Shown here piece after piece: positions 9,763 through 59,560 of a stretch of DNA of 64,000 nt. The stretch comes from Sabellastarte sp. h YS-2021 (taxonomy: Eukaryota > Annelida > Polychaeta > Sabellida > Sabellidae): positions 20,851,160 to 20,915,159 of the forward strand of contig OZ024927.1 in NCBI GenBank assembly GCA_964017235.1. The letters run 5' to 3'. Within the stretch, counting starts at the first letter, position 1, and each line of letters begins with the position of its first letter. The notes beneath the pieces were generated by a model. The model did no database searches and had not been told where the DNA came from. It saw only the letters and a list, made by a program, of their open reading frames with translations. The position numbers and the translations under genes were made by a program.

Positions 9763-11645
9763 GAGGCAATTTGTGATTGAACCGGGTTGCAAACAAGTCT
9801 ACTTGTGGTCGGACCCATCTGGAACACAAAAGATTGAACAGCTGCTGAGATAGGGACCACTCTGTTTGAATCACTTGATTGTGTCTGGAAAGCTTGTCCG
9901 CTATCACATTCAAGCGACCTGGAATGTGTCTTGCCCTCAGGATTATTCACCTGGGATGGCACCAGGACAGAAGCCTCCATAGGAGGGCACAGAGAGAGCC
10001 TGACTTCATACCACCCTGTTTGTTTATGTAAGAGACCACCGTTGTGTTGTCTGTTGCAATAAGAACAATCTGGTCCCTGCACAGATGCTCAAAACTCTTT
10101 AGGGCCAGAAGGACTGCCTTTAGCTCTAAATAATTGATGTGGAGGCGACTTTCTATGGCTGAACAAACGCCTCTTGCAGTGGAGTCCCCTAAGTGTGCAC
10201 CCCAGCCTTCATTTGAGGCGTCTGTAAACAGCTGAAGAGCGTGCTGAAGAGGGTGCAAAGGTTGGCCCCTTAGTACATTGTTCTCGTCCAACCACCAATC
10301 TAGGTGTGGATGGAGTGACTGAGAACCGGTATGATCTTTTCTAGAACCTCGGGGACGTGCCACTGACGCTTCAAGTGCCACTGAATGGGCCTCATATGAA
10401 GACGTCCCGACCAGACTTGTTTTTCTGTGGCTGTAAGCAGTCCTATTAAAGACATGAACTGTCTGACTGTGCAACTGCTCCAGTTCTTGATGAAGTATAA
10501 CTTCTCTTGAAGAGCTATCCACCAGTCCTGAGTGGGTAGAACCCGACCGGATAACAGGTTGAACCAGTAGCCTACGAAATTGAAGACCTGCTGGGGTTCT
10601 AGCTCCGATTTCTTCATGTTGACTGCCCACCCTAACTGCTGGCACAGGGCCAAGAGGGTCTGGGTATGTTGTAGGCAGGTTTCCGGGCACGGGGCTCTCA
10701 GTAACCAGTCGTCTAGGTACTGGTGGATACGAATACCCTTTGCTTGTGCCATCAGCTTCACTTCTTTGACCACCTTTGTGAACTCGAGGGGAGCTGTGGC
10801 CAAACCAAAAGGGAGAGCTGTGAACTGAAAGGTTTGATTGTTCAGGAAAAATCTGAGGTATTTTCTGGACTTCTGGGAGATTGGGACTTGGAAATACGCA
10901 TCGCTGAAATCCAGAGAGGTCACCCATTCTCCTTTCTGTAAGGACAACCGGAGTTTCCATCTTGAAAGAACTGGTCCTCAAGTATAGATTTAGCTGACTT
11001 AGATCCAAGATTGGCCTCCATTTTTTGTTGGGTTTGGGAACTAGGAAGAGTCAGTTGTAAAAGGCCTGAGACGACTTGACAACTACTTTTTCCACTACCA
11101 ACTTTTCTGTGAGACTGACCAAGGCTTCTTTTAGAAACCGGCTTTTGGTGGGATTCACGTAACCACTTTGAACCAAAGGAAACCTTGTCAAAAGGGGCCT
11201 CTGTTTGAAGGGAAGAGTGTAACCGTCCCTCAGAACTGAGACCACCCGATTCTTGCCAAATATGCCAAAACTGTTGAAGTCTTCCCCCTACATTCTGTCC
11301 GGCGACAGCATTGGGGACATTGGGAGCAATTGGGACAGAAAGACATGGACTTACACAAGAAACACCTTTGACATGCTTTATTTTGATCAGACATTGACCG
11401 GGACTTACTCCTTTCTTTTGTGGAGGCCCGTGTGAATGAACAGTAGGAACATGATTTACAACAGGATAACACACATCCAGGAGACTTAAGGTCTTTGACA
11501 CAACTGAACTTGTTACTGTCTGTGTAATTGAACATTCTGAGATTTGACTCTCTGACATAACTTTGTATTGAAACTTTGGGTCCAACTGAACTGGCTTTAC
11601 ATGAATGGAGGTTGGACCAACCCAATAATTGTCATTTAAATGGCT
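9763..11645 (-). pseudogene. DIRS-a RT-RNase H remnant
   Basis: RT-RH spread over several frames. Recognisable parts are the N-terminal block GGRLQQFWHIW (about 11290), DGYTLPF (about 11225), FLVPKPNKKWRPILDLSQLN (about 11040), LDFSDAYF (about 10910), HQYLDDWLLRAP (about 10720), LFTDASNEGWGAHL (about 10230) and ATDNTTVVSYINKQGG (about 10050). There is a TGA in FYN-stop-LFLVP near 11051, a frameshift near 10955 and further shifts before the RNase H part. The C-terminus was split by DIRS-b; its end lies left of 3441. Confidence 0.87.
11230..11634 (-). other. DIRS-a gag stop and in-frame Cys-rich readthrough extension
   Basis: The gag frame ends at TGA (11632-11634) in AAATGACAATTATTG. Reading on in the same frame gives about 133 codons without a stop, with a Cys-rich core (LSCCKSCSYC, QRCFLCKSMSFC, NCSQCPQCC, ECRG) that aligns Cys for Cys with the extensions in DIRS-d and DIRS-f. 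The RT frame runs at +1 across the same bases. Zinc binding is inferred from the CxxC pairs; readthrough is inferred from the CAA-TTA context. Here the upstream gag is broken, so this copy is a fossil of the arrangement. Confidence 0.65.
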
Positions 11646-22867: not shown

Positions 22868-24080
22868 TCACTTCTGGGCCTGGTGGTGCACCTGCTGGGC
22901 AGCCACTACAGGTCCCAGGTGGAAAAGCTCTGAGTCAGCCCAGGCAACATCCTTCAAATAAACTTGGGTGAAGGTGTTGTGAGATTTCCAGTGGCAGGCT
23001 GACAAGATCTGATCTAAGGAAATCCCTGATTGGAAAGCCTTAGATGCAGCAAAGGCCCTAACATCATGGGCTTTAACCTGATGTAAGGTGAGGGCCTCCT
23101 GGTCAGAGAGCTCATAGCACAGAACCACAGTCTGTTTGATCCATGAGGAGATGGTGGAAGGTGAGATGTCTTTATCAAAACCCTTCTTGAAGGAGACAAA
23201 GACTAACTCCTTATTCTGCCTGAGGTCTGCAGTCCTGTCCAAATAGTAGCGCAGGGCTCTAACTGGCCATAGGGACCTGTCACCCTTGAGTGACCTATCC
23301 AGAGATGGTGCCAGGGCTGGAATAACCGCTGGAGCCACACTATCTGGACCTTCCTTAGCCAGCTGGTTCTTGGATAGGAAGCTGGGTGAGGGGTACAAGG
23401 ACACCTTAGACCAGTCTGACTGGTGCCTGATGTTCTTATGTAACCACGCATGGATCTCACTCCTGCGTTTACCTGAGCCCAAGGCCAGCAAGAAAACAGT
23501 CTTGAAAGTTAGATGTTTCAAGGAGGCCTCTTTCAGGGGTTCAAAGGGAGCCTTTGTGAGCTGATGTAAAACCAGTGAAAGGTTTCAGGAGGGGATGCCC
23601 CTCCTGCCCTTAGGTCTGTCTCTATGGAAACTATCCAGGAGACGAGTGAGATTCTCATCTTTGCTGACATTAATGGTGGAATTGCCCAGTTTGTCAGCAA
23701 TGGCGGATCTGTAGCCATCAATAGTGCCTGGTTGTAACTTCTTCTCCTGAAACAAGTGCAGGAGGAAGTCAGCAATGGCCTTCAGAGGTGGTGCCCTGAA
23801 GTCCACCTGATTACTGAGGCACCACTTTGTAAAAATGGTCCACTTTGCCTCATAGACAGATCTGGTTGATCTTCTTTGAGGAGCCTCAATTCGTGCTGCC
23901 ACTGCCTCAGAGAAGCCTTGCTCCTTGATTGCTGAGGCTCTAGGAGCCAGGCATGTAGGTTCAGATTCGACAGGTTCCTGTGTAGGACCTGGTTGAATGG
24001 CTGAGACACTAGGTTGGGTATGCTGGGCAGACACAGTGGGATCTGGCTTGACATTGCTACCAGGTCCCAAAACCAGGGCA
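22868..24080 (-). pseudogene. DIRS-d tyrosine recombinase, one premature stop
   Basis: All YR motifs are present: STRSVYEAKW, TIDGYRSAI, GSGKRRSEI, HDVRAFAAS, ACHWKSHNTF and VYLKDVAW (Tyr nucleophile). A TGA at 23585 replaces the Trp of PSWNLSLVLHQ: the plus strand reads TTTCAGG where DIRS-f has TTCCAGG, consistent with a single transition. Without that change the frame would be open to the stop at 22868. The start is uncertain because the frame overlaps RT-RH. Confidence 0.87.
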
Positions 24081-26118
24081 TGTTGGGCCACCCTGGAGCA
24101 ATCAGAATTATTCTGTTGCAGGGGTAGTCCTGGAGCTTCTCCACCACTTTGCCCAAGATGGCTGCCGGTGGGAAGGCGTATGGGTCCAGGTCCTCCCAGG
24201 AGAGGCTGAGTGCATCCACTGCCCAAGCCTGGGGGTCTGGTACCGGTGATACAAACTGTGGTAGTTTGTTGTTGAACCTGGTGGCAAACAGGTCCACTTG
24301 TGGCTGATGCCACCTTGAACATACAGCTTGGAACACTTCTGGATGAAGTGACCACTCTGTTTGAATGGTCTGGCCAAGCCTGGATAGCTTGTCTGCGATC
24401 ACGTTCAGCCGGCCGGGGATGTGACGTGCCCTGAGGGTTACTTGCTGCCTGGTGCACCAGGACAGTATTCTCCACAGTAGGGCACACAGAGAGCCCGATT
24501 TCATGCCCCCTTCTTTGTTGATATAGGCAACCACTGTTGTGTTGTCTGTAGCTACCAACACTGTTTTGTTGAAGACTAGGGTTCAAAACTCTTTTAGAGC
24601 TAGAAATACTGCTTTCAGCTCCAAGTGGTTTATGTGTAACTTGCTCTCTGGTAGGGACCACTGTCCCCTTGCAGTGTGCTCGTCTAAGTGAGCACCCCAC
24701 CCTTCTTTTGATGCGTCTGTAAAGATTTGCAGAGCATGTTTTAGAGGGTGTAATGGTTGACCTAGAAGCACATTGCTTTCCTCCAGCCACCACCTTAGAT
24801 GGGGTTGGAGGGATTTGGGGACCGGGATCACCTTTTCCAGTGACTCTGGGACCCTCCAGTTGTTTTTCAAGTGCCACTGTATGGGTCTCATGTGTAGTCG
24901 CCCTAAGTGGACTTGTGTTTCTGTTGCTGTGAGTAGACCTATGAGGGACATGAATTTCCGGACCCGGCATACCGGATCCGACAGTATTGATCTGATCTTG
25001 TCTGTCAAGGCCTGCCAACGTTCTTCTGTTGGTCTGACCTTGCCCTCTTTCAGGTCGAACTGGTAACCTACGAAGTTGAAGACCTGTTTGGGAACCAGCT
25101 CTGACTTTTCCTTGTTCACCAGCCACCCTAATTCCTGACAAAGTGTGACTAGGGTTTGAGTATGCTGGAGACAGGTGTGGTGGGTAGAGGCTCTCACCAG
25201 CCAGTCATCTAGGTACTGGTGGATCCTTATACCCTTCTGAAGTGCCATGAGTTTGACCTCTTTGGCCACCACTGTGAACTCCATGGGAGCTGTGGACAGG
25301 CCAAAGGGAAGGGCTTTGAACTGGTAGGACCGACCCTGGAGGTGAAAGCGCATGTACTTCCTGGACTGACTGTGAATTGGTATGTGGAAGTATGCGTCTT
25401 TGAAATCTATGGATGTGACCCACTCCCCTGCTTGGAGGGAGGTTCTTATTGTCTCTGGGGTTTCCATCTTGAACGTCCCTGTGTTTAAAAAGGTGTTCAA
25501 GGTGCTCAGGTCTAGGATCGGTCTCCACCGGTTGTTGGGTTTGGGTACCAAAAATAGCCGGTTGTAAAACCCCAGTGAGTTTTGATTTTCCACCGGTTCG
25601 ACTGCATTCTTGTTTATCAGCTGATACAGTGCCTCTAAAAGGAAGGACTGTTTGGTTGGATTGTGGTAGTTGCTTATTACAGTCGGTGACCTTGTCAAGT
25701 GGGGTCTGAACCAGAAGGGGAGAGTGTAACCCTCCCTCAGTGTGTTTACTACTTTTGGACTTGAACCCAGGGTTTCCCATTTCTCCCAACACTGCTGTAA
25801 CCTGGCCCCTACAGGAGGATCTATAACAGCATGTTGGGCATTGGTGACAAGATTTACAGAACTCAAGTGACCTACACAAAAAACATTTTTCACATATTTT
25901 ATTTTTGTGTACAATTGACATGCATTGGGATTTACGCCTTTCCTTTGTGGCAACCCGGTGACAATAGGAACACTTGCAACACAAGAGTCTACATTTAAAG
26001 TCACTTTGCTGTTCTTCTGGTCTGTCACTGGTGGTGGGTTCAAACCCTCCATCTTGTCGGATACAATTACAGAGTCCTTCAATCCGACCACATTTGAAAC
26101 ACAATATTTGTCATTTAT
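23782..26118 (-). pseudogene. DIRS-d RT-RNase H, broken in RNase H
   Basis: RT is open from the gag junction to about 24583: GARLQQCWEKW, REGYTLPF, FLVPKPNNRWRPILDLSTLN, SIDFKDAYF, ALPFGLSTAP, HQYLDDWLVRAS, then RNase H FTDASKEGWGAHLDE and LELKAVFLALKEF. A TGA at 24583-24585 stops it. Downstream, ATDNTTVVAYINKEGG, RHIPGRLNVIADKLSR and the IAPGWPNMPWFWDLV tail remain open to 23782 and overlap YR. Confidence 0.88.
25600..26113 (-). other. DIRS-d gag stop context and Cys-rich extension
   Basis: The ancestral gag frame has TGA at 26111-26113 in AAATGACAAATATTG; the codon pair after the stop is CAA-ATA, one base away from the CAA-TTA of the sister elements. In that frame follow CFKCGRIEGLCNC, DFKCRLLCCKCSYC, EKCFLCRSLEFCKSC and HQCPTCCYRSSC. 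The Cys pattern matches DIRS-f and DIRS-a. Because of the gag deletion, the surviving gag frame now leads into RT rather than into this TGA. Confidence 0.6.
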
Positions 26119-34124: not shown

Positions 34125-34511
34125 TCAGGGGAGGTTTCTCTTTGAAGGGTAGGGTGTACCCTTCCTGCAGAATTGAAACCACTCTTTTGGTTGCACCCAG
34201 GGAGTGCCAGACCTGCCAAAACCTTTGCAGTCGGGCCCCCACAGGTGGATTTGGCACAACATGAGGGACATTTTGAACAGTTGGAACAAGGATTTACACA
34301 AGGATTTACACAGCAAACAGGTTTCACACACTTTATTTCTGTTTGGGTCTGACTGGGTCTTATATCTTTGTTTTCCGACAGCCCGGTTACAGAAGGTGCA
34401 TGACAGACAACATTTAAGTTTACAGTCTTGATTACATGTTTGTTTAAGTCCTGACACATTGGATCCTCCACACTTGACTTTAACTGAGGATCTACTAAAC
34501 AATAATTGTCA
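34125..34511 (-). other. DIRS-e gag stop and Cys-rich readthrough extension, itself frameshifted
   Basis: Gag ends TAT-AAA-TGA at 34509; the next codons are CAA-TTA-TTG. In frame follow VKCGGSN, QTCNQDCKLKCCLSCTFC and ETCLLCKSLCKSL. Then a one-base indel near a 12-bp repeat (ACAAGGATTTAC twice, about 34286-34309) moves the remaining cysteines (NCSKCPSCCAKSTCGG) into another frame. The 15-base block AAATGACAATTATTG is identical to that in DIRS-a. RT is at +1 (SLINDNYC). Confidence 0.62.
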
Positions 34512-42302: not shown

Positions 42303-42460
42303 CTGAGCCAGCCAGGTGAGATGAGTGTCTGACCTTTGACCTCCAAACCAGAAGTAGCCATCTTCTCTGATTTCCAAAGAATTCCAATCATACAGTCTTC
42401 TATCTACTTCAACTCGGGAAGTGATGTATGTGTCTTCTGGTGACAAACCAGTACTCCATT
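42303..42460 (-). CDS. Host gene exon 10
   Basis: Enters in phase 1 and leaves in phase 0. Encodes EWSTGLSPEDTYITSRVEVD, then RRLYDWNSLEIREDGYFWFG and GQRSDTHLTWLAQ. Acceptor CTTCAG, donor GTAGG. Confidence 0.84.
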
Positions 42461-45609: not shown

Positions 45610-45764
45610 ACATTTGTTGTGTAGGGTCAAAGGTCAAGTAGATCCAGTTGGACTTAATCCCTTCAGTATCTCTGGCCCAGAAGAGAAGTGTCCACACCTT
45701 GGTTTTATTTCCTGCTGGGAAACCCAGAAAGTGAACTCCGATAGCATTTGTGTCAAAACCATCT
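45610..45764 (-). CDS. Host gene exon 8
   Basis: Enters in phase 2 and leaves in phase 1 at T followed by GTAAG. Encodes FDTNAIGVHFLGFPAGNKT, then VWTLLFWARDTEGIKSNWIY. Its last base and the first two of exon 9 make a Cys codon. Confidence 0.84.
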
Positions 45765-45982
45765 CTGAAGTGAAAATATAAAGAAAATTAATCATTTGTT
45801 AGGTGACCAGGAAAATGAATCTACCATAATAGAAAAGCCAAACAAAGGGTTAAATACATTTCAACTGAAAAGCTCGCTGATAACTCAGGTATTTATTTTT
45901 GTTCAAAGGGAATTCTCTTTAACAGAATTTTACTCAATGAGTTATGACTGTATTAACTAAGACCGTAAATAATTGAAATTAC

Positions 45983-46106
45983 CTGTAATTATGTTCTGGT
46001 TCAGTGATGTTCATGTAGTTCTCTGTAGTTGGTTTTGGAATCACTGTTGTGAACCCACCTGGTGTGTCTGTACTTCCCAAGGTCACATCAAGGTCACGGT
46101 CATAGC
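45983..46106 (-). CDS. Host gene exon 7
   Basis: Enters in phase 1 and leaves in phase 2. Encodes GYDRDLDVTLGSTDTPGGFT and TVIPKPTTENYMNITEP; one sequon. Confidence 0.82.
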
Positions 46107-46264
46107 CTATATATTTACAACAAAATGTCATACATAGTAAAAGAAAAAAAAAATGTGAGTATTCTGTTTTTCAAACATTAAAATTCTAATATTTGATTTT
46201 GAAATATAGATAACTTCATTTCATATTACTATTCATGTAACATTTATAAATACAGGAAGAAACA

Positions 46265-46860
46265 GCTAGTTATTCTAATTCTAATAGTATTTATATAGCA
46301 CCTAATCTCTATCTAAAGACAGACTCTAGGCACACCAAACAGAAAACTATAATCATAAACCTGAGACATAGCAAGGGTCAGCGCCACAGAGAGAATCCAG
46401 GGAAAGCAAAAGTTAGGGTGGATATGCTTGTGCAAAGGGATAGGTTTTGAGCTTCCTTCTGAATGAGTGGAGAGAAGTGGCCAAACGAACATCATCAGGT
46501 AAATCATTCCAAATCTTTGGAGCGTCATAAGCTAAACTGAGGCCAAAATGCTTTGAGGACTTATATATTGAAGTGCCAAAGTGAGGGATCTCAAATAACA
46601 CGCCATCAGTTGGGCTTTTGCGTGTGTTATAGACACTTTGTCTGGGTTTACGAAAAGGTGCAAAATATTTTGGATAACCACAATGTAGGAAATTGTAGAC
46701 CAGTAAGGCAGTCTTGAATATGGAACGGTGTTCAACAGGCAACCAATGGAGAATCTTCCTAACAGGAGTGATGGTGTGAATACTTGGTGGTGTTTGTGAC
46801 AATTCTGACTACGACGTCCTATGTCTGAACTGAATGCTGTAAAGGACTGGATTTTTGCCA
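46265..46860 (-). mobile_element. Non-LTR retrotransposon 3' end (reverse transcriptase ORF C-terminus)
   Basis: The minus strand encodes a 129-residue piece with the usual C-terminal landmarks of LINE ORF2: KILHWLPVEHRSIFKTALLV, YNFLHCGYPKYF, AYDAPKIWNDLPDDVR and SFRRKLKTYPF, then a stop and a TAGAAT-type tail at 46270-46285. 5'-truncated. A Jockey/CR1/L2-like clade is likely. Confidence 0.8.
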
Positions 46861-47143
46861 ACAATTATAATTGCTCTACTTAATCACGAAAAAAGTAGAC
46901 ACTTTCTGCCTTAAAATTTCTCCAATTTTTATCCTGGTAACATATTTCCCTTCTCATTTAAGATTCCACCTGACATTAGAGTCAACTCCGACTGATTTTC
47001 CTTCAGCATATGATTCCATTAAAAATTATATTAAACTGCACTATCAATGAGTCGTGCACAAATTTTCTTGTATATTCCACCAGAAATATAGCCATTAATA
47101 CAGGAAATAACAGAGTGATGTAGGTACCAATAATTTTCCCAAC

Positions 47144-47308
47144 CTAAATCTCCACTCTTGGCATGTTTAAAGAATTCTTCATCTGTTGGTTGGTCTTCTA
47201 CCACAGGAGGATCAAAGTCTACATATTCATCCATGAACCCATCACTCAAGGTCACACTGAATACTGAATGCCCCCCTCCTGAAATCTGTACCTTCAAAGA
47301 GTAGTCTC
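47144..47308 (-). CDS. Host gene exon 6
   Basis: Enters and leaves in phase 1. Encodes YSLKVQISGGGHSVFSVTLS and the acidic stretch DEYVDFDPPVVEDQPTDEEF. The VQISGGG motif recalls VHISGGC of exon 3, suggesting duplicated modules. Confidence 0.83.
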
Positions 47309-47515
47309 CTGAAAAATAGAAAATATTTACCTTTACGGGTGAAAATCCTTTTTTTGTCATAAAAAAGTTTTTTATATACTTAAGTCTACTACATTCATTT
47401 TAACTAGTAAAGATAATTCATTACCATTTGACTATATGTGCATGTGCATAAGACTAGATGATCTAGTAATGTGGGAAGTCTGAGAGATGTAGTCTGAGTT
47501 GTAACTAATACTAAC

Positions 47516-47669
47516 CTTCTAACATCTGCAATGTGTCAGTCATCATTGATCCTCCCTCAAGATGTAATGTGCTGATATTGTAGTGGAGATACATCATTAG
47601 AGCGCCATCCTCACGATTCAGTACATTTCTCTGATGATATTCTATATAAACATCCTCATAGAATCCACC
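47516..47669 (-). CDS. Host gene exon 5
   Basis: Enters in phase 0 and leaves in phase 1. Encodes GGFYEDVYIEYHQRNVLNRE and MMYLHYNISTLHLEGGSM. Acceptor TTGCAG, donor GTTAG. Confidence 0.83.
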
Positions 47670-47729
47670 CTGCAAGAATGTATAGCAGATATAAATATAT
47701 TCCACAAAATGTGTAAACAATATGTACAA

Positions 47730-48968
47730 GAGGGTCACAGATGCCCCAAAAGGCGGGTTGCACAGGCAGAAATAAGGTTAGCAACCGCTGTAATTACATT
47801 TAGAAAAGAAGAAAAGAAATGTTAGGTTACCCAGTTAAGGTGAATGTGTAAGACGTGCTAAGAAATGTAAAACTTGTAATCTAGGTTACATAATTGTATC
47901 TATGCTATAAACGGACAAACGGAAGGACGGAATTACACCAACTTAGCAACTTAGCTATGATGGTGATGCATCTCCCTGTCAAGTTTGAATTCGACTGGAC
48001 AAAGCGTTTTCGAGTTAGAGTCCAGAAACGAAAATGTGGACAGACAGACGGATGGACAGAAAAATGGACAAAAAATGGACAAACGGACAGGAAAACGGAC
48101 AAACAAACAGACGGAATTACACCAATTTCGAAAGGAACCTAGCTATGATGGTGATCTATGCCCCTGTCAAGTATGAATTTGATTGGACAAACTGTTTTCG
48201 AGTTGGAGTCCGGAAACGAAAATGTGGACAAACAGATGGATGGACAGACAAACGGACAAAAATGGACAAACGAACAGACGGAATTACACCAATTTTGAAA
48301 GGAACCTAGCTATGATGGTGGTCTATCTCCCTGTCAAGTTTAAATTCGATTGGACAAACTGTTTTCGAGTTAGAGTCCGGAAACGAAAATGTGGACAGAC
48401 GGATGAACAGAAAAATGGACAAAAATACGGACAAACGGACAGAAAAACGGACAAATGAACAGACGGAATTACACCAATTTCGACAGGAACCTAGCTATGA
48501 TGGTGATATATGTCCTTGTCAAGTATGAGTTCGATTGGACAAACCGTTTTCGAGTTAGAGTCCGGAAATAAAAATGTGGACTGACAGACGGATGGACAGA
48601 CAAACGGACAAAAAACAGAAAACGAACACACAGAATTACACCAATTTCGAAAGGAACCTAGCTATGATGCTGATCTATCTCCCTGTCAAGTTTGAATTCG
48701 ATTGGTCAAACCGTTTTCGAGTTAGAGTCCGGAAACGAAAATGTGGACAATCAGACGGATGGACAGACAAACGGACAAACAAACAGACGGAATTTCACCA
48801 ATATCGAAAGGAACCTAGCTATGATGTTGATCTATCTACCTGTCAAGTTTGAATTCAATCGGACAAACCGTTTTCGAGTTAGAGTCTGGAAACAAAAAAT
48901 GTGGACGGATAGACAGACGTCGGACACATCAATCTTATAGGCGGGTTGGTTACATGCAACCCGCCTAA
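47730..48968 (+). mobile_element. Tandem-repeat-cored element (pearl/Helentron-like), copy 2
   Basis: Leader from GCCCCAAAAGGCGGGTTGCA, then about six tandem units starting near 47931, 48113, 48281, 48467, 48637 and 48789 (150-186 bp), ending with the hairpin GGCGGGTTG-GTTACATG-CAACCCGCC. Between units lie GGACAGACGGA-type purine-rich runs of variable length. More units and better preserved than the copy at 19246. It lies in the intron between exons 4 and 5. Confidence 0.65.
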
Positions 48969-50054
48969 AAATTGCCATGCACATAAATACAATGAACTGA
49001 CAAACCAGATTACAATATACAAAAAAAATCTCAAATTAAAGATGGTGTACTAAGTTTAAAAATCATGTATTGAGTTCTTTTGTTAACTTTTACTATTATA
49101 AATTTTGCGACAGTGACAAATTGGACAATAAAAGGTTATTCCTTGTTTTGTTTTGCCACTGGTTAAGCTGTGTCAAAGCTCTTGTTATATTGAACAACTT
49201 GCCCATGTAATGTGGATGAATACATTCCCAGTAAGAATAAAAAAGGAAAAGCCAGAAAGAAAAGAAAAATCAGCTTTGAAGAGAAATTTAAAATGAAGGC
49301 AAGATTTAAGCAAAATTAGCAATTGTCAGTCTGTTATCAAGTGTACTCCTTTTATATGTACTTGTGTACATTTTTTATTTTGTTAAATATTAATTTTACT
49401 CCAATTAACAGTATCCCACAAAGACAAAAAATTTTTTATTATTCTCTTACTTGTTTTATTGTGACTTTTCTCTCACACATTGATATAGGAATAAAAGACA
49501 TATTCGAGTGCTTTATGATGGTTGAGTGCTTTAATACAGCCGATTGATAGTTTAAAACCATCATAAAACACGAAAATTTGTCTTTTATTCCTATTCTAAA
49601 ATGGTTAAATAAATATTCCAGTAAAAATAAATGGTAAATCTTACGCAAAAATCAAAACAAATGCAGCGCCATGTTAGCTGTTCCATCAATAGAACATACA
49701 TAGTGATATCTGTTGTAAAAAAAAGGATTTTTGTCACTCTGTTTTCATAGAATTTGTTTTGAAATATTGAGAGATTGTCACTGTAGATGCTTTCACTTTG
49801 TTGTAAGCTTTAAAACGATATTCTATTTATAAAAATAAAGCAAGAAATAACAATTTTATGAATGTACATAGAATTCAACAGCGTTACTTTATTTACCGTT
49901 CTATATACACGATTTCTGAACTGTGCATAAGACGTGTCCAAGGTCACTGCGCAGCCTACCATTTTAGAATATGTTTTAAACAATGGATTACAATATTTAA
50001 TGAATGGCGATGGTAATTCAATGAATAGAAAAAGAAATTAGTTTTATATAAAGA
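48969..50054. other. Intron, nothing coding
   Basis: AT-rich. A short inverted repeat surrounds 49478-49590: GATATAGGAATAAAAGACA and its near complement TGTCTTTTATTCCTATTC, with ATGATGG between, a possible small hairpin element. Confidence 0.4.
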
Positions 50055-50068
50055 CCGACCCCTATGAA

Positions 50069-50294
50069 TTATTTGGGGTTTTACGTCGCTTTCAACACTG
50101 TACAGGTCATATCACGATGGGTAGTTGGAAGGGCAGAGGAAACTAGTACATATAGTTCGCTAGGGTTCTGTACTGTAAACTGCCGACCAACGGCAAGCAA
50201 CTACCAGCTTTCCCACTTACGGCCATGACGGGGATCGAACCCCGGCCGCAGAGGTGGGAGGCAAGAGTGTTACCACTCTGCCACCATGGCCCCT
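50069..50294 (-). mobile_element. tRNA-derived SINE with target-site duplication
   Basis: The head (50221-50293, minus strand) is tRNA-like: GGCCATG pairs with CATGGCC as the acceptor stem, a GTGGCAGAGTGG A box, and CGGGGTTCGATCCCCG as T arm and B box. A body with CAACTACCAGC-type text and a 3' end GCGACGTAAAACCCCAAAT follow. A 14-bp direct repeat, CCGAYCCCTATGAA, flanks it (50055-50068 and 50295-50308, one mismatch). It lies in the intron just 3' of exon 4. Confidence 0.85.
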
Positions 50295-50360
50295 CCGATC
50301 CCTATGAAAGACCACTTTTTAGGATTTCCCTTTGGTTTTAATGTTTTAATTTTTATGTAC

Positions 50361-51598
50361 CTCAACATCTTCCAGTGCCACTCCATCCATCACATACCAG
50401 AGATCCTTGTTACCCTCATCTACTGGCACCAAGAACCTTGTTAGTGGACAGTCCAGTGTAGATCCCAGAGGTGACACAGCAAATACAGCCTCTAGGTCTG
50501 AGGTGGAAGATTGGTAGTACTTGGTTTGTGTCCAGTCTGAACCATCCTTCACCACACCTTTTTCTGGACCTGTACTATCCAGGAATATTGCAGTGGACCA
50601 GTCTATGGTTACAGATCCAGCCCGGTTAATCACAGTAATCAGAATCCTGTATGGAATATCCTGCTTGAAGTCCTGGGACAGGTAGATATGTTGGTCTGTA
50701 TTCTTTACATCTAGAGACTCACTGATGGGAGTCCAGCTTTCAGGATCTGATCCCAGACAATCAGATTCATTGAAGAGTTGCAGGTAAAAGTCTGATATAC
50801 CACTCTCATCATCTTTATAACCTTCCCATCTTACTCTCAGAGTGTCCCTGCTGGTGGTGTACTGTACATGTGTACCTATTCCATCAATCTGGATAATGCC
50901 CTTGTCAGGTGGAGTCAAGTCTACTGTAAACATTTGAGAGATACTGGAAATGCACTGACTTGCTTCATCTTCTGCAACAACAACTACATAATAATCTTTT
51001 GCATGTTCCAGATTTAAGTCCTTCTTTTCTGCAAAACGATCCTGTTTTTCATCTACCAAGGGCTGTACTTTGGCCCAGTTTTCAACCAATGGCAGTAAAT
51101 TGCTGCAAGGTAATGTAACATTATCCTCTGGGAATGCTGTGCTACCTATTCCCCATCTGTAATGGATGACTCTAAAATCAGACACATAACGACCCCAGTA
51201 GAAACTCAGTGAGTTGGAACTGTTGCTATAACGACTGAGATGTACCTCACCCGCCTCCATTCCTGCACTGTAGCCTACTTTTATACCATTAGACACACTG
51301 TCAACATGAGCCCCACTCTCACTATAACCTCTCACTGTGGCAAAGTATTCGACTCTCTTGGGTGTCAGTCTGAGACTCACAAAGGTATAGTTCAAGCTCA
51401 GTCCAACATCCACAAAATAGTGCACATTTGTCCTGGTTTCAGCATAACTAGGGTTGTCACCCAGGGCAACCTGGTAGTGTGTAATAATCTGCAGAGGGTC
51501 ATCGTCTGAACCAAATGGATCCCAGTTGACTGAGAGTTCCTCAGTAGATTCCTGGTAATTCCTGTCTTCACCGGGATATGGACCGTCTCTAACTTCAC
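50361..51598 (-). CDS. Host gene exon 4: largest exon, FN3-like repeats
   Basis: Enters in phase 1 and leaves in phase 0; 412 codons. It contains ITHYQVALGDNPSYAETRTN, YEFATV-type strand RVEYFATVRGYSESGAHVDS, SFYWGRYVSDFRVIHYRWGI, AKDYYVVVVAEDEASQC, the linker TVDLTPPDKGIIQIDGIG, RVRWEGYKDDESGISDFYLQ, PYRILITVINRAGSVTIDWS and another linker, DSTGPEKGVV. These are about three FN3-like units. The upstream intron (51599-60137) holds DIRS-f, and decayed copies of the exon's first bases lie just upstream. Confidence 0.9.
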
Positions 51599-51659
51599 CT
51601 GTAAAAAAGATAAAGAAGATCTAAATAACATAAAATATGAACAGTTTTTGCAAGAAAAG

Positions 51660-51876
51660 GAAAGGATTAGTAAATAGATTCCTGGACATTCTTGTAGTTC
51701 CTACCTTCACAAGGATATGGACCATCTCTAACTTCACCTGTGGAAAAATTAAGTATAATGCTGAACATAAAATAAGAACAGTTATTGCAAGAATTTACAA
51801 AGATCCTTGGTGGGTGGATTCCAGGTAATTGCTGTCTTCACCAGGAAATCAACTATCTCTAACCTCAGCCGTTAAA
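51660..51876 (-). repeat. Two further copies of the exon 4 acceptor and 5' end
   Basis: 51678-51743 and 51818-51875 align with 51549-51602 (GATTCCTGG, CTTCACCGGGATATGGACC, TCTCTAACTTCACC), spaced about 130-140 bases. The first keeps the acceptor CAG and about 23 codons of frame; the second is degraded. Another trace lies at 59626-59668, beyond DIRS-f. Confidence 0.72.
51705..51737 (-). CDS. Possible cryptic 33-nt exon of the host gene
   Basis: Inside the nearer exon 4 copy, CCACAG precedes and GTAGGA follows a 33-nt segment. It enters and leaves in phase 1, so inclusion between exons 3 and 4 would keep the frame and add 11 residues (EVRDGPYPCEG-like). No evidence of use is available from DNA alone. 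Confidence 0.3.
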
Positions 51877-52255
51877 AATAGCATCAGAGATGTCTGTACC
51901 CCACAGCCTGAGGAAATAGTTTTCAACACCATGCGATATAGAAGTAGTGAAACAGTACACAGATTGGGATACTTTCAGAGCAGTGTCAGTGTCCAAATAA
52001 TGTTTAAGTAGAGAAATAATATTTAAGAGAAAGAAACTGCATGTAAAGATTAAGTATTAAAACAAGACAATTCAGTAAACTAAAGATTATAAAGCTGTAA
52101 CATTTATTAATTAGAGAATAGCTGTCAATGGAAATATCACAATTATGCAAAATACATAATTTATAATAATCAGTTGCAGCAATCCATATCCTTACGGTTG
52201 CTGAGATATGCCCGGACAATATATTATTGGTAAAATTAAGGCAGGGTTAGAAATT
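51877..52255. repeat. Dispersed repeat, copy 2 (partial)
   Basis: ATAGCATCAGAGATGTCTGT and CACCATGCGATATAGAAGTAG match the start of the repeat at 40110. Its later part is interrupted by the non-LTR fragment at 52290. Confidence 0.5.
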
Positions 52256-52289
52256 AGCGCCGATCCATCGATCCGCAACCTACAGAAAT

Positions 52290-52622
52290 GCTATTTGGTT
52301 GAAAAGATTAAGATCCTGCCAATCTGTTTGTCCTAGAAGCTGTAGGACAATTATACATGCGCATTTTGCACATTTGAATTATGATTTGCATGTTTTCGAT
52401 ATTGTTCAGTTGCCTCCTTCAGAAAGAAGCTTAAAACTTACCTGTTTGCAAAAGCCTACCCACCATAGCCTCTCCCGTCACATCTGTGTCTCCTTGGTAC
52501 GACCTGGCTATGTCCCTTGATTAACGATAACTGCCTTGCTTTATGTTTAGATGCGCCTTAGAGTCCATCAGTGATGGAGATTAAGCGCTATAAAAGTCCA
52601 CATTAGATTAGATTAGATTAGA
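52290..52622 (+). mobile_element. Non-LTR retrotransposon 3' end with (ATTAG)n tail
   Basis: Encodes FRKKLKTYLFAKAYPP-like C-terminal text near 52417-52465, then a 3' UTR containing GAGATTAAGCGCTATAAAAG and a tail of ATTAG repeats at 52600-52622. 5'-truncated. Confidence 0.72.
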
Positions 52623-52959
52623 TGTTCAACCACACCAAAGTGACCTCGAACATGTGTATGAACATTTAAGTCCTTTCCCATTTTAATATTTGTTTTGCAT
52701 GGTCGAATTACGGTTTGAATGTTTTGTATTACCCACACATACAGATGTGGCAATACATGCTTGCGTGTGGTGTTGGGGCAAAACCTGTGGCTCACATGAT
52801 GAATACCATCTGTTATAATGGGAAGTTCCAAAAGTAAAACCCTTTATGAATTCTAATATGACCTTAACAGTGCTTAATCTATATCAAAAGATACTCAAAG
52901 GTGTAACAATCAAGATTTGAGTAAAAAGACATAAGATAGATATAAGAGAGATAAAATAG

Positions 52960-53214
52960 TATCAGATATCCCCGTAGGGAGATAAAATAGCATCAGATAT
53001 GCAAGATCAAAGGTCAAATCAAGGTCACACCATGATGTTGCACGCCGATAACCACCGACCAATGTCCTTACCAAATATCAACTTCCTACACCTTATGGTT
53101 TCCGAAATATAGCCTTGACAGGGCATTATAGGTCAAGGTCACTACGGCAAGGTCAAATGAAGGTCACACCATGACATTGCACACCTACACCCCCTAACCA
53201 ATGTTTCTACCAAA
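52960..53214. repeat. Tandem units, left of DIRS-f
   Basis: Units with CAAGGTCACACCATGATG, CACCTTATGGTTTCCG and ACCAATGTTTCTACCAA. They continue at 59293 with ATATCAACTTCCTACACC, showing that DIRS-f was inserted between CCAA and ATCAAC. Confidence 0.7.
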
Positions 53215-53400
53215 TTGCAAATTTAATAAGTAAATTAAATTTTTATAAGTTAATACCCTATCCAATGGACAAACGCCAGAAAAAGATGTCCTGTATATAA
53301 TACCGGCAGGACCGGTCAGGAGAGTGCATTCGCCAGGTGGCGCATCGTACTTCCTCTTCCTGTCTAGACAACGTGACGTCATAGCATCTTTTTCGTGTCT
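53215..53400. repeat. DIRS-f left inverted terminal repeat, internally deleted
   Basis: Pairs with 59095-59292, but between GGACAA and ACGCCAGAAAAAGA about 35 bases present in DIRS-d (TTGCTTTACGGG onward) are missing. Confidence 0.83.
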
Positions 53401-53409
53401 AATCCTAGT

Positions 53410-53475
53410 AAATTTAATTTACTTATTAAATTTGTAATTTTATTGCGTTAATACATCATATCCAATGGACAATTG
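53410..53475. repeat. DIRS-f ICR, left half lost
   Basis: Keeps AATTTAATTTACTTATTAAA, the join to ATTTTATTGCG and ATCCAATGGACAATTGC. The left TGTCCATTGGATAGGG part seen at 22405 in DIRS-d is deleted. Confidence 0.75.
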
Positions 53476-53855
53476 CTGAATAACTACCACTTGGTAGGCG
53501 GGTAAGCAGCTAGGGACTTATGTGAACTCAAAACAAAATTGTACAGGCCCATTTGACCTAGGGTTAGAGAACCCTGAAAGGTCAGGGTCGGCCACCAACT
53601 CACCGGTTAACCGGGAGTCTACCGACGTTGCCCCCTTCCCCTTTTTCTTTCCTTCCAGAGTCGGTCTGAGAAGGGAAAGATAGAGAGAGAGAGGGGCTGA
53701 GTTCAGTCCCAGAAGAATTAAACTTCCCAAGGGAAGCAAGTCACAGTTTTTTTTTTGTTTTTTTTTGAAAATATATGTACATTCAACATATTTACATTAT
53801 GTACATATCTAACATATTTACAATATGTACATATTTACATATATACAATATCTCC

Positions 53856-55072
53856 TCACTTCTGGGCCTGGTGGTGCACCTGTTGGGCAGCCACTACAGG
53901 TCCCAGATGGAAAAGCTCTGAGTCTGCCCAGGCAACATCCTTCAAATAGAATTGGGTGAAGGTGTTGTGAGATTTCCAGTGGCAGGCTGACAAGATCTGA
54001 TCTAAGGAGATCCCTGACTGGAAGGCCTTAGATGCAGCAAAGGCCCTAACATCATGGGCTTTAACCTGATGTAAGGAGAGGGCCTCCTGGTCAGAGAGCT
54101 CATAGCACAGAATGACAGTCTGTTTGATCCATGAGGAGATGGTGGCAGGTGAGATGTCTTTGTCGAACCCTTTCTTGAAGGAGACAAAGACTAACTCCTT
54201 ATTCTGCCTGAGATCTGAAGTCCTGTCCAAGTAGTAGCGCAGGGCTCTAACTGGACATAGGGACCTGTCACCCTTGAGTGACCTGTCCAGAGATGGTGCC
54301 AGGGTTGGAATGACCACTGGAGCCACACTATCTGGACCCTCCTTAGCCAGCTGATTCTTGGATAGGAAGCTGGGTGAGGGGTAAAAGGACACCTTAGACC
54401 AGTCTGACTGGTGTCTGATGTTCTTATGTAACCAAGCATGGATCTCACTCCTGCGTTTACCTGAACCCAAGGCCAGCAAGAAAACAGTCTTGAAAGTTAG
54501 ATGTTTCAAGGAGGCCTCTTTTAAGGGTTCAAAGGGAGCCTTTGTGAGCTGGTGTAAAACCAGTGAAAGGTTCCAGGAGGGGATGCCCCTCCTGCCCTTA
54601 GGTCTGTCTCTATGGAAACTATCCAGGAGACGAGTGAGATTCTCATCTTTGCTGACATTAATGGTGGAATTGCCCAGTTTGTCAGCAATGGCTGATCTGT
54701 AGCCATCAATAGTGCCTGGTTGTAACTTCTTCTCCTGAAACAAGTGCAGGAGGAAGTCAGCAATGGCTTTCAGAGGTGGTGCCCTGAAGTCCACCTGATT
54801 ACTGAGGCACCACTTTGTAAAAATGGTCCACTTTGCCTCATAGACAGATCTGGTTGATCTTCTTTGAGGAGCCTCAATTCGTGCTGCCACTGCCTCAGAG
54901 AAGCCTTGCTCCTTGATTGCTGAGGCTCTAGGAGCCAGGCATGCAGGTTCAGATTCGACAGGTTCCTGTGAAGAACCTGGTTGAATGGCTGAGACACTAG
55001 GTTGGATATGCTGGGCAGACACAGTGGGATCTGGCTTGACATTGCTACCAGGTCCCACAACCAGGGCATGCT
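53856..55072 (-). CDS. DIRS-f tyrosine recombinase, intact
   Basis: Open, about 400 codons; the start cannot be fixed because the frame stays open upstream through the RT-RH overlap. Motifs: STRSVYEAKW, GTIDGYRSAI, LLDSFHRDRPKG, PSWNLSLVLHQL (Trp kept, unlike DIRS-d), GSGKRRSEI, HDVRAFAAS, ACHWKSHNTF and FYLKDVAW. All four catalytic motifs are present. Likely still competent as a protein. Confidence 0.87.
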
Positions 55073-55183
55073 GGGCCACCCTGGAGCAATCCGAATTATT
55101 CTGTTGCAGGGGTAGTCCTGGAGCTTCTCCACCACTTTGCCCAAGATGGCTGCTGGTGGGAAGGCGTATGGGTCCAGGTCCTT

Positions 55184-57056
55184 TCAGGAGAGGCTGAGTG
55201 CATCCACTGCCCAAGCCTGGGGGTCTGGTACCGGTGATACAAACTGTGGCAGTTTGTTGTTGAACCTGGTGGCAAACAGGTCCACTTGTGGCTGATGCCA
55301 CCTTGAGCATACAGCTTGGAACACTTCTGGATGAAGTGACCACTCTGTTTGAATGGTCTGGCCAAGCCTGGATAGCTTGTCTGCTATCACGTTCAGCCGG
55401 CCGGGGATGTGACGTGCCCTGAGGGTTACTTGCTGCCTGGTACACCAGGACAGTATTCTCCACAGTAGGGCACACAGGGAGCCCGATTTCATCCCCCCTT
55501 CTTTGTTGATATAGGCAACCACTGTTGTGTTGTCTGTAGCTACCAACACTGTCTTGTTGAAGACTAGGGTTCGAAACTCTAGCTAGAAATACTGCTTTCA
55601 GCTCCAAGTGGTTTATGTGTAACTTGCTCTCTGGTAGGGACCACTTTCCCCTTGCAGTGTGCTTGTCTAAGTGAGCGCCCACCCTTCTTTTGACGCGTCT
55701 GTAAAGATTTGCAGAGCATGTTTTAGAGGGTGTAATGGTTGACCTAGAAGCACATTGCTTTCCTCCAGCCACCACCTTAGATGGGGGTGGAGGGATTTGG
55801 GGACCGGGATCACCTTTTCCAGTGACTCTGGGACCCTCCAGTTGTTTTTCAAGTGCCACTGAATGGGTCTCATGTGGAGTCGCCCTAAGTGGACTTGCTT
55901 TTCTGTTGCTGTGAGTAGACCTATGAGGGATATGAATTGTCGGACCAGGCAAAACGGATCCGACAGTATTGATCTGATCTTGTCTGTCAAGGTTTGCCAA
56001 CGCTCTTCTGTTGGTCTGACCCTGGCCTCTTTCAGGTCGAACTGGTAACCTACAAAGTTGAAGACCTGTTTGGGAACCAGTTCTGACTTTTCCCTGTTCA
56101 CCAGCCACCCTAGTTCCTGGCACAGTGTGACCAGGGTTTGAGTATGCTGGAGACAGGTGTCGTGGGTAGAGGCTCTCACCAGCCAGTCGTCTAGGTACTG
56201 GTGGATCCTTATACCCTTCTGAAGTGCCATGAGTTTGACCTCTTTGGCCACCACTGTGAACTCCATGGGGGCCGTGGATAGACCAAAGGGTAGGGCTTTG
56301 AACTGGTAGGACCGACCCTGGAGGTGAAAATGCATGTACTTCCTGGACTGACTGTGAATTGGTATGTGGAAGTAAGCGTCGTTGAAATCTATGGATGTGA
56401 CCCATTCCCCTGCCTGTAGGGAGGTTCTGATTGTCTCTGGGGTCTCCATCCTGAACGACCCTGTGTTTAAAAAGGTGTTCAAGGTGCTCAGGTCCAGTAC
56501 CGGTCTCCACCGGTTGTTGGGTTTGGGTACCAAAAATAGCCGGTTGTAAAAACCCAGCGAGTTTTGATTTTCTACCGGTTCGACTGCATTTTTGTTTATC
56601 AGCTGATACAGTGCTTATTACAGTCAGTGACCTTGTCAAGTGGGGTCTGAACCGGAATGGAAGAGTATAACCCTCCCTCAGTATGGTGACTACTTTTGGA
56701 CTGGAACCCAGGACTTCCCATTTCTCCCAACACTGGTTTAACCTCGCCCCTACAGGAGGATCTAAAACAGCATGTTGGGCATTGGTGACAAGATTTACAG
56801 AACACAAGTGACCTACACAAAAAACATCTTTCACATATTTTATTTTGGTGTACAAGTGACATGCATTGGGATTTAAGCCTTTCCTTTGCGGCAACCTGGT
56901 GACAATATGAGCATTTGCAACATGAGAGTCTACATTTAAAGTCACTTTGCTGTTCTCTGCTGCCACAGGTACTGAGTCCAAGTCTCCCTGACCGGTAACA
57001 CATACAGAATTCATCTGACCGGTCACAGAATTTACACAGTAATTGTCATTTATGAG
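55184..57056 (-). pseudogene. DIRS-f RT-RNase H, broken at several points
   Basis: The RT start (SLINDNYC, GARLNQCWEKW, REGYTLPF) runs at +1 to gag. A 41-bp deletion near 56613 shifts the frame. RT core is open in the second frame from 56533 (VPKPNNRWRPVLDLS, SIDFNDAYF, HQYLDDWLVRAS) into RNase H (IFTDASKEGW), where one base is lost near 55676. ATDNTTVVAYINKEGG and RHIPGRLNVIADKLSR follow from 55549, and a stop at 55184 replaces Trp before the conserved tail (124 codons, 55144-54770). Confidence 0.88.
56599..57048 (-). other. DIRS-f UGA-CAATTA site and Cys-rich readthrough extension of Gag
   Basis: Gag ends CAT-AAA-TGA (57046-57048), followed directly by CAA-TTA, the STOP-CARYYA context known from tobamovirus-type readthrough. 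The gag frame then stays open for 148 codons with a dense Cys array: CKFCDRSDEFCMC, DFKCRLSCCKCSYC, CERCFLCRSLVFCKSC and CHQCPTCCFRSSC. Cys positions agree with DIRS-d and DIRS-a. The RT frame overlaps it at +1. I infer a Gag variant carrying a zinc-binding domain; no translation evidence is available. This is the best preserved copy, since the upstream gag is intact. Confidence 0.68.
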
Positions 57057-58980
57057 ACTTGGACCCCTTAGCCGGCTTCTGGAAGAATGTGGAGGCTTTG
57101 CCACGACCTCTCCTCGCTTGCTGCTTGTCTTTGATCTGTTTCCAAGCAGGGACGTTCTTCTTGTCGGTGTGATGGCTAGTAGATTTGTCACTTGCTGCAT
57201 ATGGGTGGAAGCGACCTTGGTGTCGGTGTGAGGTACTGGAAGAATGCCTCTCCTCACTCTTACTGATTTCCTCTTCAGCTTTTGCTATAAGCTGGTCCGG
57301 GAATAAAGCATTCAGATGAACTGGAGACGTTCTCAAGGCGTGCACAGTGTCTTGCTTCACCCCAGCATGTAAATAGTCCAAGTAACTATCCCTGCGAGCA
57401 AGGGTGAAGTTGGCCATGTTGATAAAAACTGCTTCTGAAAGATCTTGCATAGTCCTGGCCATTGTTTGAGATACTGACCGGTTAAAAGTGGTCAGATACT
57501 CCAGTTCACTAACAGCTTGCTTCACCTTCTCAGATGACTTCCCTTTACTGTCCAGACGCAGGGTTTTTAACTGAGAGTTCATAGAGTCTTGAACCCTGGT
57601 CAAACACCTTGACAAACCAGCAGCCTGGTTGCACATTATTGTCTGTTCACAAGCTGCCCTCTCCCAGTGTCTGAGGAGATCCTGACTGAAAGCTCGAGAG
57701 GGTGGAGCAGAAGGCAAATTTCTTCTTGCAACCCTGCTGAAAGAATGGTTGAGTTTAGCAGGATCCGGTGACCAGGTACGAACTGTAGAACTCTCACTGT
57801 CTGTTTCAGCATGCATCCCGTACCATCTAGAAGGTCTAGGGGTTTTGATGAACTGATCCCTGAGGAGTCCAGTGTTGTCAGTGTTTCTAGTGGGGTAGCC
57901 TTCTTTGATTGTGAGGTTAAGACTGGACATCTTCCTGCACAACCAGTCGTCCACAGGAAGTTTCACACTGACTTTACCGGTTGGCTGGACACGTGTACCG
58001 GCAAAGGGGTTGTCATCTGCAGTAGAGGACACAGATTCGAACTCAGGAATCCTGTGCCAGTTCATGAAACTTCTCACACCCCTCATGGTTTCCTTGTAGT
58101 TAGCCTCCTCAGTGGGTTTAGTCTCAGGGTCATCTCTGGAGGCATCCTTGTCTGCTGACCGGTCCCGGTGGATGTCACCATCCTGGGAACCGGTTTCGCT
58201 GCACTGGTCAGCTTCACTGTCAGAGGCTGCACTCAGATCTACTTCACCGGTGGGCTGAACCTCTGGGAACGAACCGGGGGCCTGAACAGGCTGGGTTGCT
58301 ATCCCTGCACCGGGAGCCCCAAGGGGCTGGGTGGCAGTCTGCATCTCCTCTACATCAATACCGGTGGCCTGGTCAAGGCAGGGACCGGATTTCTCTACTG
58401 GCAGACTGATCTCCACAGGTAGATTGCTGGTGGTGGCACCAGGGTCAAAAAATGGCTTCTGAGTGGGAGTCACATCTGAAGCTGGCTTCACAACCGGTTC
58501 AACCGGCACTGTGAAGGTCTTGGCTAATAACATCGCCTTAAGTCTGGAAAACCTCTCTGCCCACTTATCATCCAGTTGTTTAAGATCTTCAGTTGAAGGT
58601 CTGCTGCTTGAAGATCTCTTCTTGCTGGCAAAAGGCTTGGGAGACTCACTACGTTTCGTCTTCTTGGTAGGGGTCAACTGCACAGCCTTGACCTTTTCCA
58701 CTTTACCCAGTACGCTAACGTGTGCTGGGTCCACGAGAGTGGGGGTGGATGAGGTCGTAGAATTGGAGGTCGTCTTCTTCTCTTTTCTGTCCCTGTAGGT
58801 TGGTGTAGCCAACTGAAGGGTCTGCTCAGGGGTAAACCCTTTACAGATTACGCATTCCTTCTTCAGGACGCAGGGGTCGTCGCCTAGCCCTTTGTCCCTA
58901 TACCGTGCACACTTGGAGTGGGAGTCGAACCCAGCCATAGCATGTCCGCATGAACCTCTTCTTTGTCCTGGTGATGACAT
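57046..58980 (-). CDS. DIRS-f gag, intact (644 residues)
   Basis: Starts at Met 58980 (MSSPGQRRG). Residues 11-45 form a Cys/His motif (CGHAMAGFDSHSKCARY, GDDPC, CVIC). One Cys of the usual CARC is Tyr here. A Lys/Ser/Pro-rich region follows, then the conserved block NYKETMRGVRSFMNWHRIP, DDWLCRKMSSLNLTIKEGYP and RDQFIKTPRPSRWYG, a helical domain (LTTFNRSVSQTMARTMQDLS, FINMANFTLARRDSYL), and a basic His/Lys/Arg/Ser tail ending SKSHK before the UGA. Likely the particle protein. Confidence 0.87.
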   Translation of the reverse strand: MSSPGQRRGSCGHAMAGFDSHSKCARYRDKGLGDDPCVLKKECVICKGFTPEQTLQLATPTYRDRKEKKTTSNSTTSSTPTLVDPAHVSVLGKVEKVKAVQLTPTKKTKRSESPKPFASKKRSSSSRPSTEDLKQLDDKWAERFSRLKAMLLAKTFTVPVEPVVKPASDVTPTQKPFFDPGATTSNLPVEISLPVEKSGPCLDQATGIDVEEMQTATQPLGAPGAGIATQPVQAPGSFPEVQPTGEVDLSAASDSEADQCSETGSQDGDIHRDRSADKDASRDDPETKPTEEANYKETMRGVRSFMNWHRIPEFESVSSTADDNPFAGTRVQPTGKVSVKLPVDDWLCRKMSSLNLTIKEGYPTRNTDNTGLLRDQFIKTPRPSRWYGMHAETDSESSTVRTWSPDPAKLNHSFSRVARRNLPSAPPSRAFSQDLLRHWERAACEQTIMCNQAAGLSRCLTRVQDSMNSQLKTLRLDSKGKSSEKVKQAVSELEYLTTFNRSVSQTMARTMQDLSEAVFINMANFTLARRDSYLDYLHAGVKQDTVHALRTSPVHLNALFPDQLIAKAEEEISKSEERHSSSTSHRHQGRFHPYAASDKSTSHHTDKKNVPAWKQIKDKQQARRGRGKASTFFQKPAKGSKSHK

Positions 58981-59094
58981 AGTTGTAGATAATACTTCTA
59001 AACTACTTCAAAGTTGAAATAAAACAGATGAATTCGGTATAAAAAATTTCCAAAATTTCCTTGTCGTTGAAAACACGTCTTCGCTCTCCACGCG

Positions 59095-59292
59095 CCAAAC
59101 GAAAAAGATGCTATGATGTCACGTTGTCTAGACAGGAAGAGGAAGTACGATGCGTCACCTGGCGAATGCACTCTCTTGACCGGTCCTGCCGGTATTATAT
59201 ACAGGACGTCTTTTTCTGGCATTTGGCGGGACCGGTCGCGTCGACTGGTAAAGCAATTGTCCATTGGATAGGATGTATTAATGCAATAAAAT
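59095..59292. repeat. DIRS-f right inverted terminal repeat
   Basis: Contains AGATGCTATGATGTCACG, GCGTCACCTGGCGAATGCAC and AATTGTCCATTGGATAGG; ends AATGCAATAAAAT at the host junction. Confidence 0.87.
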
Positions 59293-59560
59293 ATCAACTT
59301 CCTACACCATACGGTTTCAGAGATATAGCCCCGACAAGATTTTCAAATCAAGGTCACTACAGGAAGGTCAAAGGTCAAATCAAGGTCACACCATGATGTT
59401 CCAACCTACACCCCCTAGCCAATCTACCTACCAAGTATCAACTTCCTACACCTCACAGTTTCTGAGGTACATCCCGGACAAACTTTTCCCGCCGCCCGCC
59501 CACCCATCCGGACATGATGGGTGAAAACAATACCCCGACAGACCTTAAGGACTGTGGGGT
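59293..59560. repeat. Tandem units, right of DIRS-f
   Basis: Continuation of 52960-53214, ending near CACCCATCCGGACATGATGG and TGTGGGGTTAAAAGG. Confidence 0.68.

Follow-up and report, generated by a model that had tools for sequence, protein, structure and literature searches.

DIRS1-like retrotransposons carry ORFs for Gag, for an RT-RH-MT protein (pol), and for a tyrosine recombinase (YR). The YR ORF overlaps pol and has its recombinase domain at the non-overlapping end, and the accessible sections of PMC3266345 describe neither readthrough, nor a frame shift, nor a Cys array in these elements; the molluscan DIRS elements covered there have no long pol/YR overlap. DIRS ORFs or their overlaps are also described in PMC2685390, PMC9210276, and PMC5633606. 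In the parts of these four papers that are open, readthrough is not described and the mode by which the three overlapping ORFs are expressed is not stated, while those of PMC8547959 and PMC12440569 contain nothing on DIRS readthrough. Within the accessible sections of the open-licence literature, we found no description of readthrough in a DIRS element, nor of a recombinase expressed by reading through a stop.

The DIRS1-like elements described here, from the sabellid annelid Sabellastarte sp., share the layout of Gag, pol, and overlapping YR ORFs. Behind their gag stop stands the same CAAUUA hexamer that follows the stop in viruses with type I readthrough, such as tobamoviruses (UAG-CAA-UUA), benyviruses, and pomoviruses (PMC3542737, accessible part). 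Unlike in those viruses, the stop is UGA instead of UAG, the element is a retrotransposon, and a stem lies downstream. Natural cases of CARYYA generally come with UAG according to the same part of that review, and in an OPRL1 reporter CARYYA behind UGA gave about 15% readthrough, with UGA and UAG performing similarly (PMC4132726, accessible part). Gammaretroviruses likewise place an enzyme ORF in frame behind the gag stop and make a Gag fusion, but their signal combines UAG-G and a compact pseudoknot and the enzyme joined to Gag is pol (PMC3542737 and PMC5009743, accessible parts), whereas here the signal is UGA-CARYYA, the fused enzyme would be the recombinase, and RT is in another frame. The Candida element Tca2 is also a retrotransposon with UGA between gag and a downstream ORF; it differs in being an LTR element with pol behind the stop, and its junction alone directed no readthrough in S. 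cerevisiae (PMC2194720, accessible part). Judging from sequence comparison, we consider the gag UGA of this DIRS1-like group to be probably a programmed readthrough site that makes Gag-YR.

The gag stop codon and the frame behind it

The window, that is the whole stretch of 64,000 nucleotides analysed, holds several DIRS elements, and all features given here lie on its reverse strand. In DIRS-f, the gag ORF spans positions 57046..59007 and gag runs from its first ATG to its terminal TGA over 57046..58980. The TGA (57046..57048) is preceded by AAA and followed by the codons CAA TTA CTG, the first six bases of which (57040..57045) form a CARYYA hexamer. As the initial annotation had stated, the same frame then stays open for 148 codons (57045..56599) and leads into a Cys array. 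It had also read the related junctions correctly: in our alignment, CAA TTA TTG follows the gag UGA of DIRS-a (11632..11634) and of DIRS-e (34509..34511), and CAA ATA TTG follows the gag-frame UGA of DIRS-d (26111..26113). What it had observed in the sequence was thereby confirmed, and its interpretation found support in part.

The Cys array of DIRS-f occupies positions 56746..56934, and 21 columns, 13 of them Cys, are invariant among 11 aligned sequences. Aligned translations bear out that the Cys spacing is common to DIRS-a, DIRS-d, and DIRS-f; in DIRS-e the post-UGA frame is broken within the array. A strict pattern of our own definition matches 58 of the 74 stop-free copies. The array may bind zinc, and its predicted structure is poor (mean pLDDT 46.6). 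Another Cys-rich motif, CGHxMAxFDxHxKCARxRDK, is common to the N-termini of the Gags at 57046-59007, 34509-36647, and 12104-13897 and is distinct from the post-UGA array.

The frame behind the UGA is the N-terminal part of the YR ORF. When the post-stop protein was compared with the window's genome, better-preserved copies proved to have a frame that stays open for 1080-1090 codons after the UGA. In one of these, L078, it runs for 1080 codons directly from the UGA and contains a match to Phage_integrase (residues 870-1053; E 5.2e-4, 20.3 bits). DIRS-f has the same tyrosine recombinase domain at 53940..54491 (E 2.4e-4, 21.4 bits), and both matches lie below the curated Pfam cut-off of 27.1 bits. 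The initial annotation had taken the 148 codons for a zinc-binding tail of Gag. We dropped a stand-alone tail since in other copies the frame continues to the recombinase, and the readthrough product would thus be Gag-YR.

The post-UGA frame of DIRS-f (56599..57045) stops at 56599 because of a deletion of about 41 bp (1083 bases compared with 1124 in copy L010). The deletion also joins the RT frame to the YR frame, which accounts for an ORF of 1142 codons at 53856..57284 that follows the RT frame up to the deletion and the YR frame beyond it; what remains of the RT ORF beyond the deletion lies at 55667..56614. In DIRS-d, the YR frame keeps its length of 1080 codons with two internal stops (26110..22868). 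Frames of at least 1000 codons were present at no fewer than 26 of the 150 places listed, two of these 26 having a stop within the matched stretch, and at no fewer than three in another listing of 150 places. The YR frame measures exactly 1089 or 1090 codons in many copies (e.g., C7:97547579 and C18:44065824), which suggests a recently active family.

RT and RNase H are found in the ORF that overlaps YR, the arrangement of DIRS1-like elements, and in the copies L098/L099 the RT frame is open for 787 codons over the YR frame. Protein searches returned 58 and 40 relatives, some of which have precomputed matches to PF00078, PF17917, and PF13456, which we take to be the RT/RNase H accessions of Pfam. 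A Pfam search (E up to 1) of the post-UGA frames of DIRS-f, DIRS-d, DIRS-a, and DIRS-e gave no match, a sequence search of the PDB brought no useful match (best E 0.6), and a search of viral_contigs yielded no relative of the YR frame.

Conservation of the stop context and of a downstream stem

Copies of the junction were collected from a single genome, the window's own (1.79 Gb). The set comprised 39 stretches from a DNA search, 30 loci from a search with the YR-frame protein, which is biased towards open YR frames, one copy picked for its long frame, 20 of 150 places picked for their spread, and four DIRS elements of the window. After identical junctions were merged and one copy without a junction (L042) was dropped, 86 distinct copies remained.

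AAA-TGA was present in 86 of the 86 copies and CARYYA directly behind this in-frame stop, as in type I readthrough, in 82, counts obtained with a junction finder that itself required part of the motif around the stop. An alignment of 43 rows on which the motif was not imposed showed TGA-CAA at the junction in 41; the other two rows are L042 and L043, the latter having TGA-CAA in a misaligned position. The hexamer was CAATTA in 68 of the 82 copies, CAATCA in eight, and CAGTTA in six, and the four copies without CARYYA were L059, L077, L085, and DIRS-d. On a tree of the 86 copies, internal substitutions per site amounted to 0.33 at positions -3 to +8, as against 2.39 upstream and 2.46 downstream. 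Within the hexamer, four internal changes were inferred, namely two from A to G, one from T to C, and one back from C to T, all of which keep CARYYA, although the related copies and uneven sampling mean that these are not independent events. Five terminal substitutions also fell within it, two of them preserving CARYYA, and L059 is gapped there. The conservation of the stop context exceeds chance.

A caveat of the initial annotation was that the residues NDNY, encoded by the same bases in the RT frame, could by themselves preserve this context. That caveat is weakened by substitutions in RT that leave CARYYA intact: the six CAGTTA copies read D-S-Y (N to S) and the eight CAATCA copies read D-N-H (Y to H).

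A stem follows the hexamer, its start 13-22 nt downstream of the UGA in f-like, d-like, and a-like copies and in DIRS-e. The 5' arm of DIRS-f, TGACCGGT (57018..57025), pairs with the 3' arm, ACCGGTCA (56989..56996), across a loop of 21, as in the other f-like copies. The d-like stem is GTCGGAT/ATCCGAC (loop 19 in most), the a-like stem is GGTCCAAC/GTTGGACC (loop 24), and DIRS-e has its own 7-bp stem, GATCCTC/GAGGATC (loop 17). A perfect stem of at least 5 bp was present in 73 of the 86 copies and absent from 13. When mismatches and G-U pairs were allowed in the best register, at least seven of eight pairs were kept in 19 of 21 a-like and 62 of 64 f/d-like copies.

Compensatory changes indicate that the structure is conserved. 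They were counted in the 46 indel-free f/d-like rows among the 53 distinct f/d-like and e rows (six rows with indels and e being left out, besides the 17 a-like rows outside these 53), where five of nine stem pairs change on both sides. Cells with a double change numbered 19, compared with a shuffled mean of 3.7 and 1-3 in slid controls; the number of double-change pairs alone was less striking, being reached by 48 of 500 shuffles. The stem was first noticed in single folds, then sought by a UGA-anchored search, and then counted, so this covariation is not a blind test. With dinucleotide shuffling, the observed stem was matched at its own position in 0-6 of 3000 runs for L078, L086, L098, L030, and DIRS-a, in 16-44 of 3000 for DIRS-e, DIRS-d, and L046, and anywhere nearby in 9-260 of 3000. 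Shuffles of RT codons reached the stem in 10-209 of 3000 runs, the highest value belonging to the f-like stem of L078. RNAalifold returned no structure for eight mixed sequences, and the single folds did not stand out (z -0.2 to -1.35). DIRS-f (53856-59200) contains 14 occurrences of the palindrome ACCGGT in its 5345 bases, whereas the 16,001 bases of the window at 37000-53000 contain none, and part of the f-like stem may reflect this abundance.

The stem could stimulate readthrough, although its spacing of 13-22 nt exceeds that of type II readthrough signals, in which the structure lies roughly 8 nt from the stop (PMC3542737, accessible part). Another conceivable role for a stem behind a UGA present in every copy would be to help decode it as selenocysteine. 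We regard this as extremely improbable, since CARYYA is described as a readthrough context in the accessible part of the same review and no SECIS family matched the window at 51000-59400 (E up to 1), where one unrelated weak match was obtained.

Constraint on the recombinase frame

The RT frame spans the same bases as the hexamer and the Cys array and is conserved as well, which raises the possibility that both patterns are by-products of coding for NDNY and the residues that follow. We assessed this with RT-preserving shuffles, in which synonymous RT codons were redrawn and the RT protein was kept. Over 780 codons of L098/L099 there are no stops in the YR frame, whereas 2000 shuffles gave a mean of 39.8 and a minimum of 22; the third frame has 67. 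In L078, up to the first stop of the RT frame (codon 404), there are again no YR-frame stops against a mean of 16.6 in RT-preserving shuffles. Over the first 50 YR codons, ahead of the Cys array, the probability of finding no stop was 0.006-0.03 in the nine of ten copies for which it could be computed, which speaks for entry of translation at the UGA.

A comparison of L078 with L098 on their RT-protein alignment points in the same direction for the Cys region. Across the RT core (codons 160-700), differences amount to 0.53-0.57 at RT position 3, the usual pattern for RT. At codons 82-115, by contrast, differences amount to 0.545 at YR position 3 and 0.212 at YR position 2, and YR identity is 0.667 against an RT identity of 0.364 (RT-frame alignment). 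Of 1000 simulations that preserved RT and shared codons at the measured level of 0.15, none reached the YR identity or the Cys matches observed at codons 48-115, and with sharing raised to 0.5 the Cys count of codons 82-115 was reached by one of 1000. Over the RT core, the YR identity of the spacer was reached by one of 1000 runs at a sharing of 0.15 and by 504 of 1000 at 0.3, which suggests that the spacer is kept open with hardly any conservation of its YR sequence in its own right.

Among the 38 copies of the close f family, a test by codon-position class fails to tell the frames apart in the Cys region (p 0.48 and 0.215), whereas control stretches of RT give a clear RT pattern. On the 86-copy tree, raw rates of internal changes per site in the Cys region were 1.85 at YR position 3 compared with 1.30 and 1.37 at the other positions. 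The initial annotation had let its reading depend on whether the Cys codons are constrained once RT coding is modelled. The RT-preserving shuffles and simulations reveal such constraint, on the Cys codons and on the post-UGA frame, and reject the null that RT coding alone explains the YR frame; the codon-position test in the f family, taken alone, does not distinguish the frames. Coding constraint behind the stop, a feature of type I readthrough, is therefore present, with the f-family values as given. Together with the YR-type differences at codons 82-115 and the RT residues that change under a constant CARYYA, the shuffles and simulations make a by-product of RT coding very improbable, and we disfavour it.

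Entry into the recombinase and reverse transcriptase frames

The best-preserved family has no AUG ahead of the Cys array. The YR frame of L098/L099 has no AUG until codon 206, which lies past the array, and that of L078 has its first at codon 111. Eight of the 85 copies scanned have no AUG within the first 120 YR codons, and 34, many of them f-like, have one at about codon 15, so that an internal start is excluded in some families only. The YR might accordingly be made from a message of its own, by splicing, an internal promoter, or an internal AUG or non-AUG start, with the UGA as an ordinary terminator. The AUG at about codon 15 would suit such a message, and the UGA junction of Tca2 can harbour promoter activity and holds no sufficient readthrough signal (PMC2194720, accessible part).

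DIRS-b (4295-7243), which belongs to a different DIRS family in the window and of which we have one copy, is relevant here. Its gag ends in TGA, YR shares the frame of gag, RT occupies the +1 frame, and a single YR-frame stop (TAG, codon 94) is present where 26.7 are expected in 680 codons. Its junction reads UGA-CTCCCC and so does not contain CARYYA, its YR frame has an AUG at codon 26, and neither a stem of 5 bp in the stretch scanned nor a Cys array was found. The layout thus does not depend on hexamer, stem, and array, and either another context is used in DIRS-b or its YR can be expressed otherwise. The preservation of the layout there favours a separate message. Nevertheless, L098/L099 offer no AUG in their first 205 YR codons, the YR frame is kept free of stops right from the UGA, and the context of the stop is conserved. 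We therefore hold a separate YR message to be improbable for the group with CARYYA.

Relative to gag, RT occupies the +1 frame, so that AAA TGA CAA TTA becomes AAT GAC AAT TA. there. Going upstream from the UGA, nine copies (L010-L015, L056, L063, and L064) have 47 or 48 open RT-frame codons before a stop closes the frame, so that entry into RT must lie, in these copies, near the end of gag or beyond it. Upstream, the RT frame is no more open than in gag-preserving shuffles (nine copies tested; lowest 136 of 2000, in L078). Behind the UGA, over codons 1-115, it is only slightly more open than in YR-preserving shuffles (P(0) 0.01-0.24, with one stop in L086), which argues weakly for a +1 slip. 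Such a slip on AAA-UGA-C would be a plausible way into RT, and the site can be likened to the AAA-UAA sites of Euplotes.

The conserved UGA might serve this frameshift exclusively: ribosomes would pause at UGA-C, the lysine tRNA would slip from AAA to AAU, and YR would be made by other means. The invariant AAA-UGA, the start of RT in the +1 frame at that very place (GAC AAU ...), and the RT entry close to or behind the UGA in the nine copies would all fit. This would leave the openness of the YR frame from the UGA onward and the conservation of the Cys array unexplained, the RT frame behind the UGA exceeds its shuffles by little, and CARYYA is described as a readthrough signal (PMC3542737, accessible part). 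We consider a site for the +1 slip alone unlikely.

In the reading that we favour, a minority of ribosomes would decode the UGA in its CARYYA context, perhaps helped by the stem 13-22 nt downstream, and would continue in frame through the Cys array, the RT-overlapping spacer, and the tyrosine recombinase, giving a Gag-YR fusion. RT in the +1 frame would need a separate entry, and a +1 slip at the same codon may give Gag-RT. As a more tentative extension, which we hold possible but doubtful, the junction might be a three-way switch in which termination yields Gag, readthrough of UGA-CARYYA yields Gag-YR, and a +1 slip on AAA-UGA-C yields Gag-RT, with the shared 3' stem helping to set their ratios. 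Fusion to Gag would then package both enzymes, which are encoded by one stretch of bases in two frames.

A Gag-YR protein made by readthrough would be a direct and testable answer to how the recombinase of these elements is expressed. If true, it would place a readthrough signal best known from plant viruses in an animal-type retrotransposon and would attach an integration enzyme to Gag by a route other than Gag-Pol. It would also account for a YR frame that is kept open along nearly the entire RT gene.
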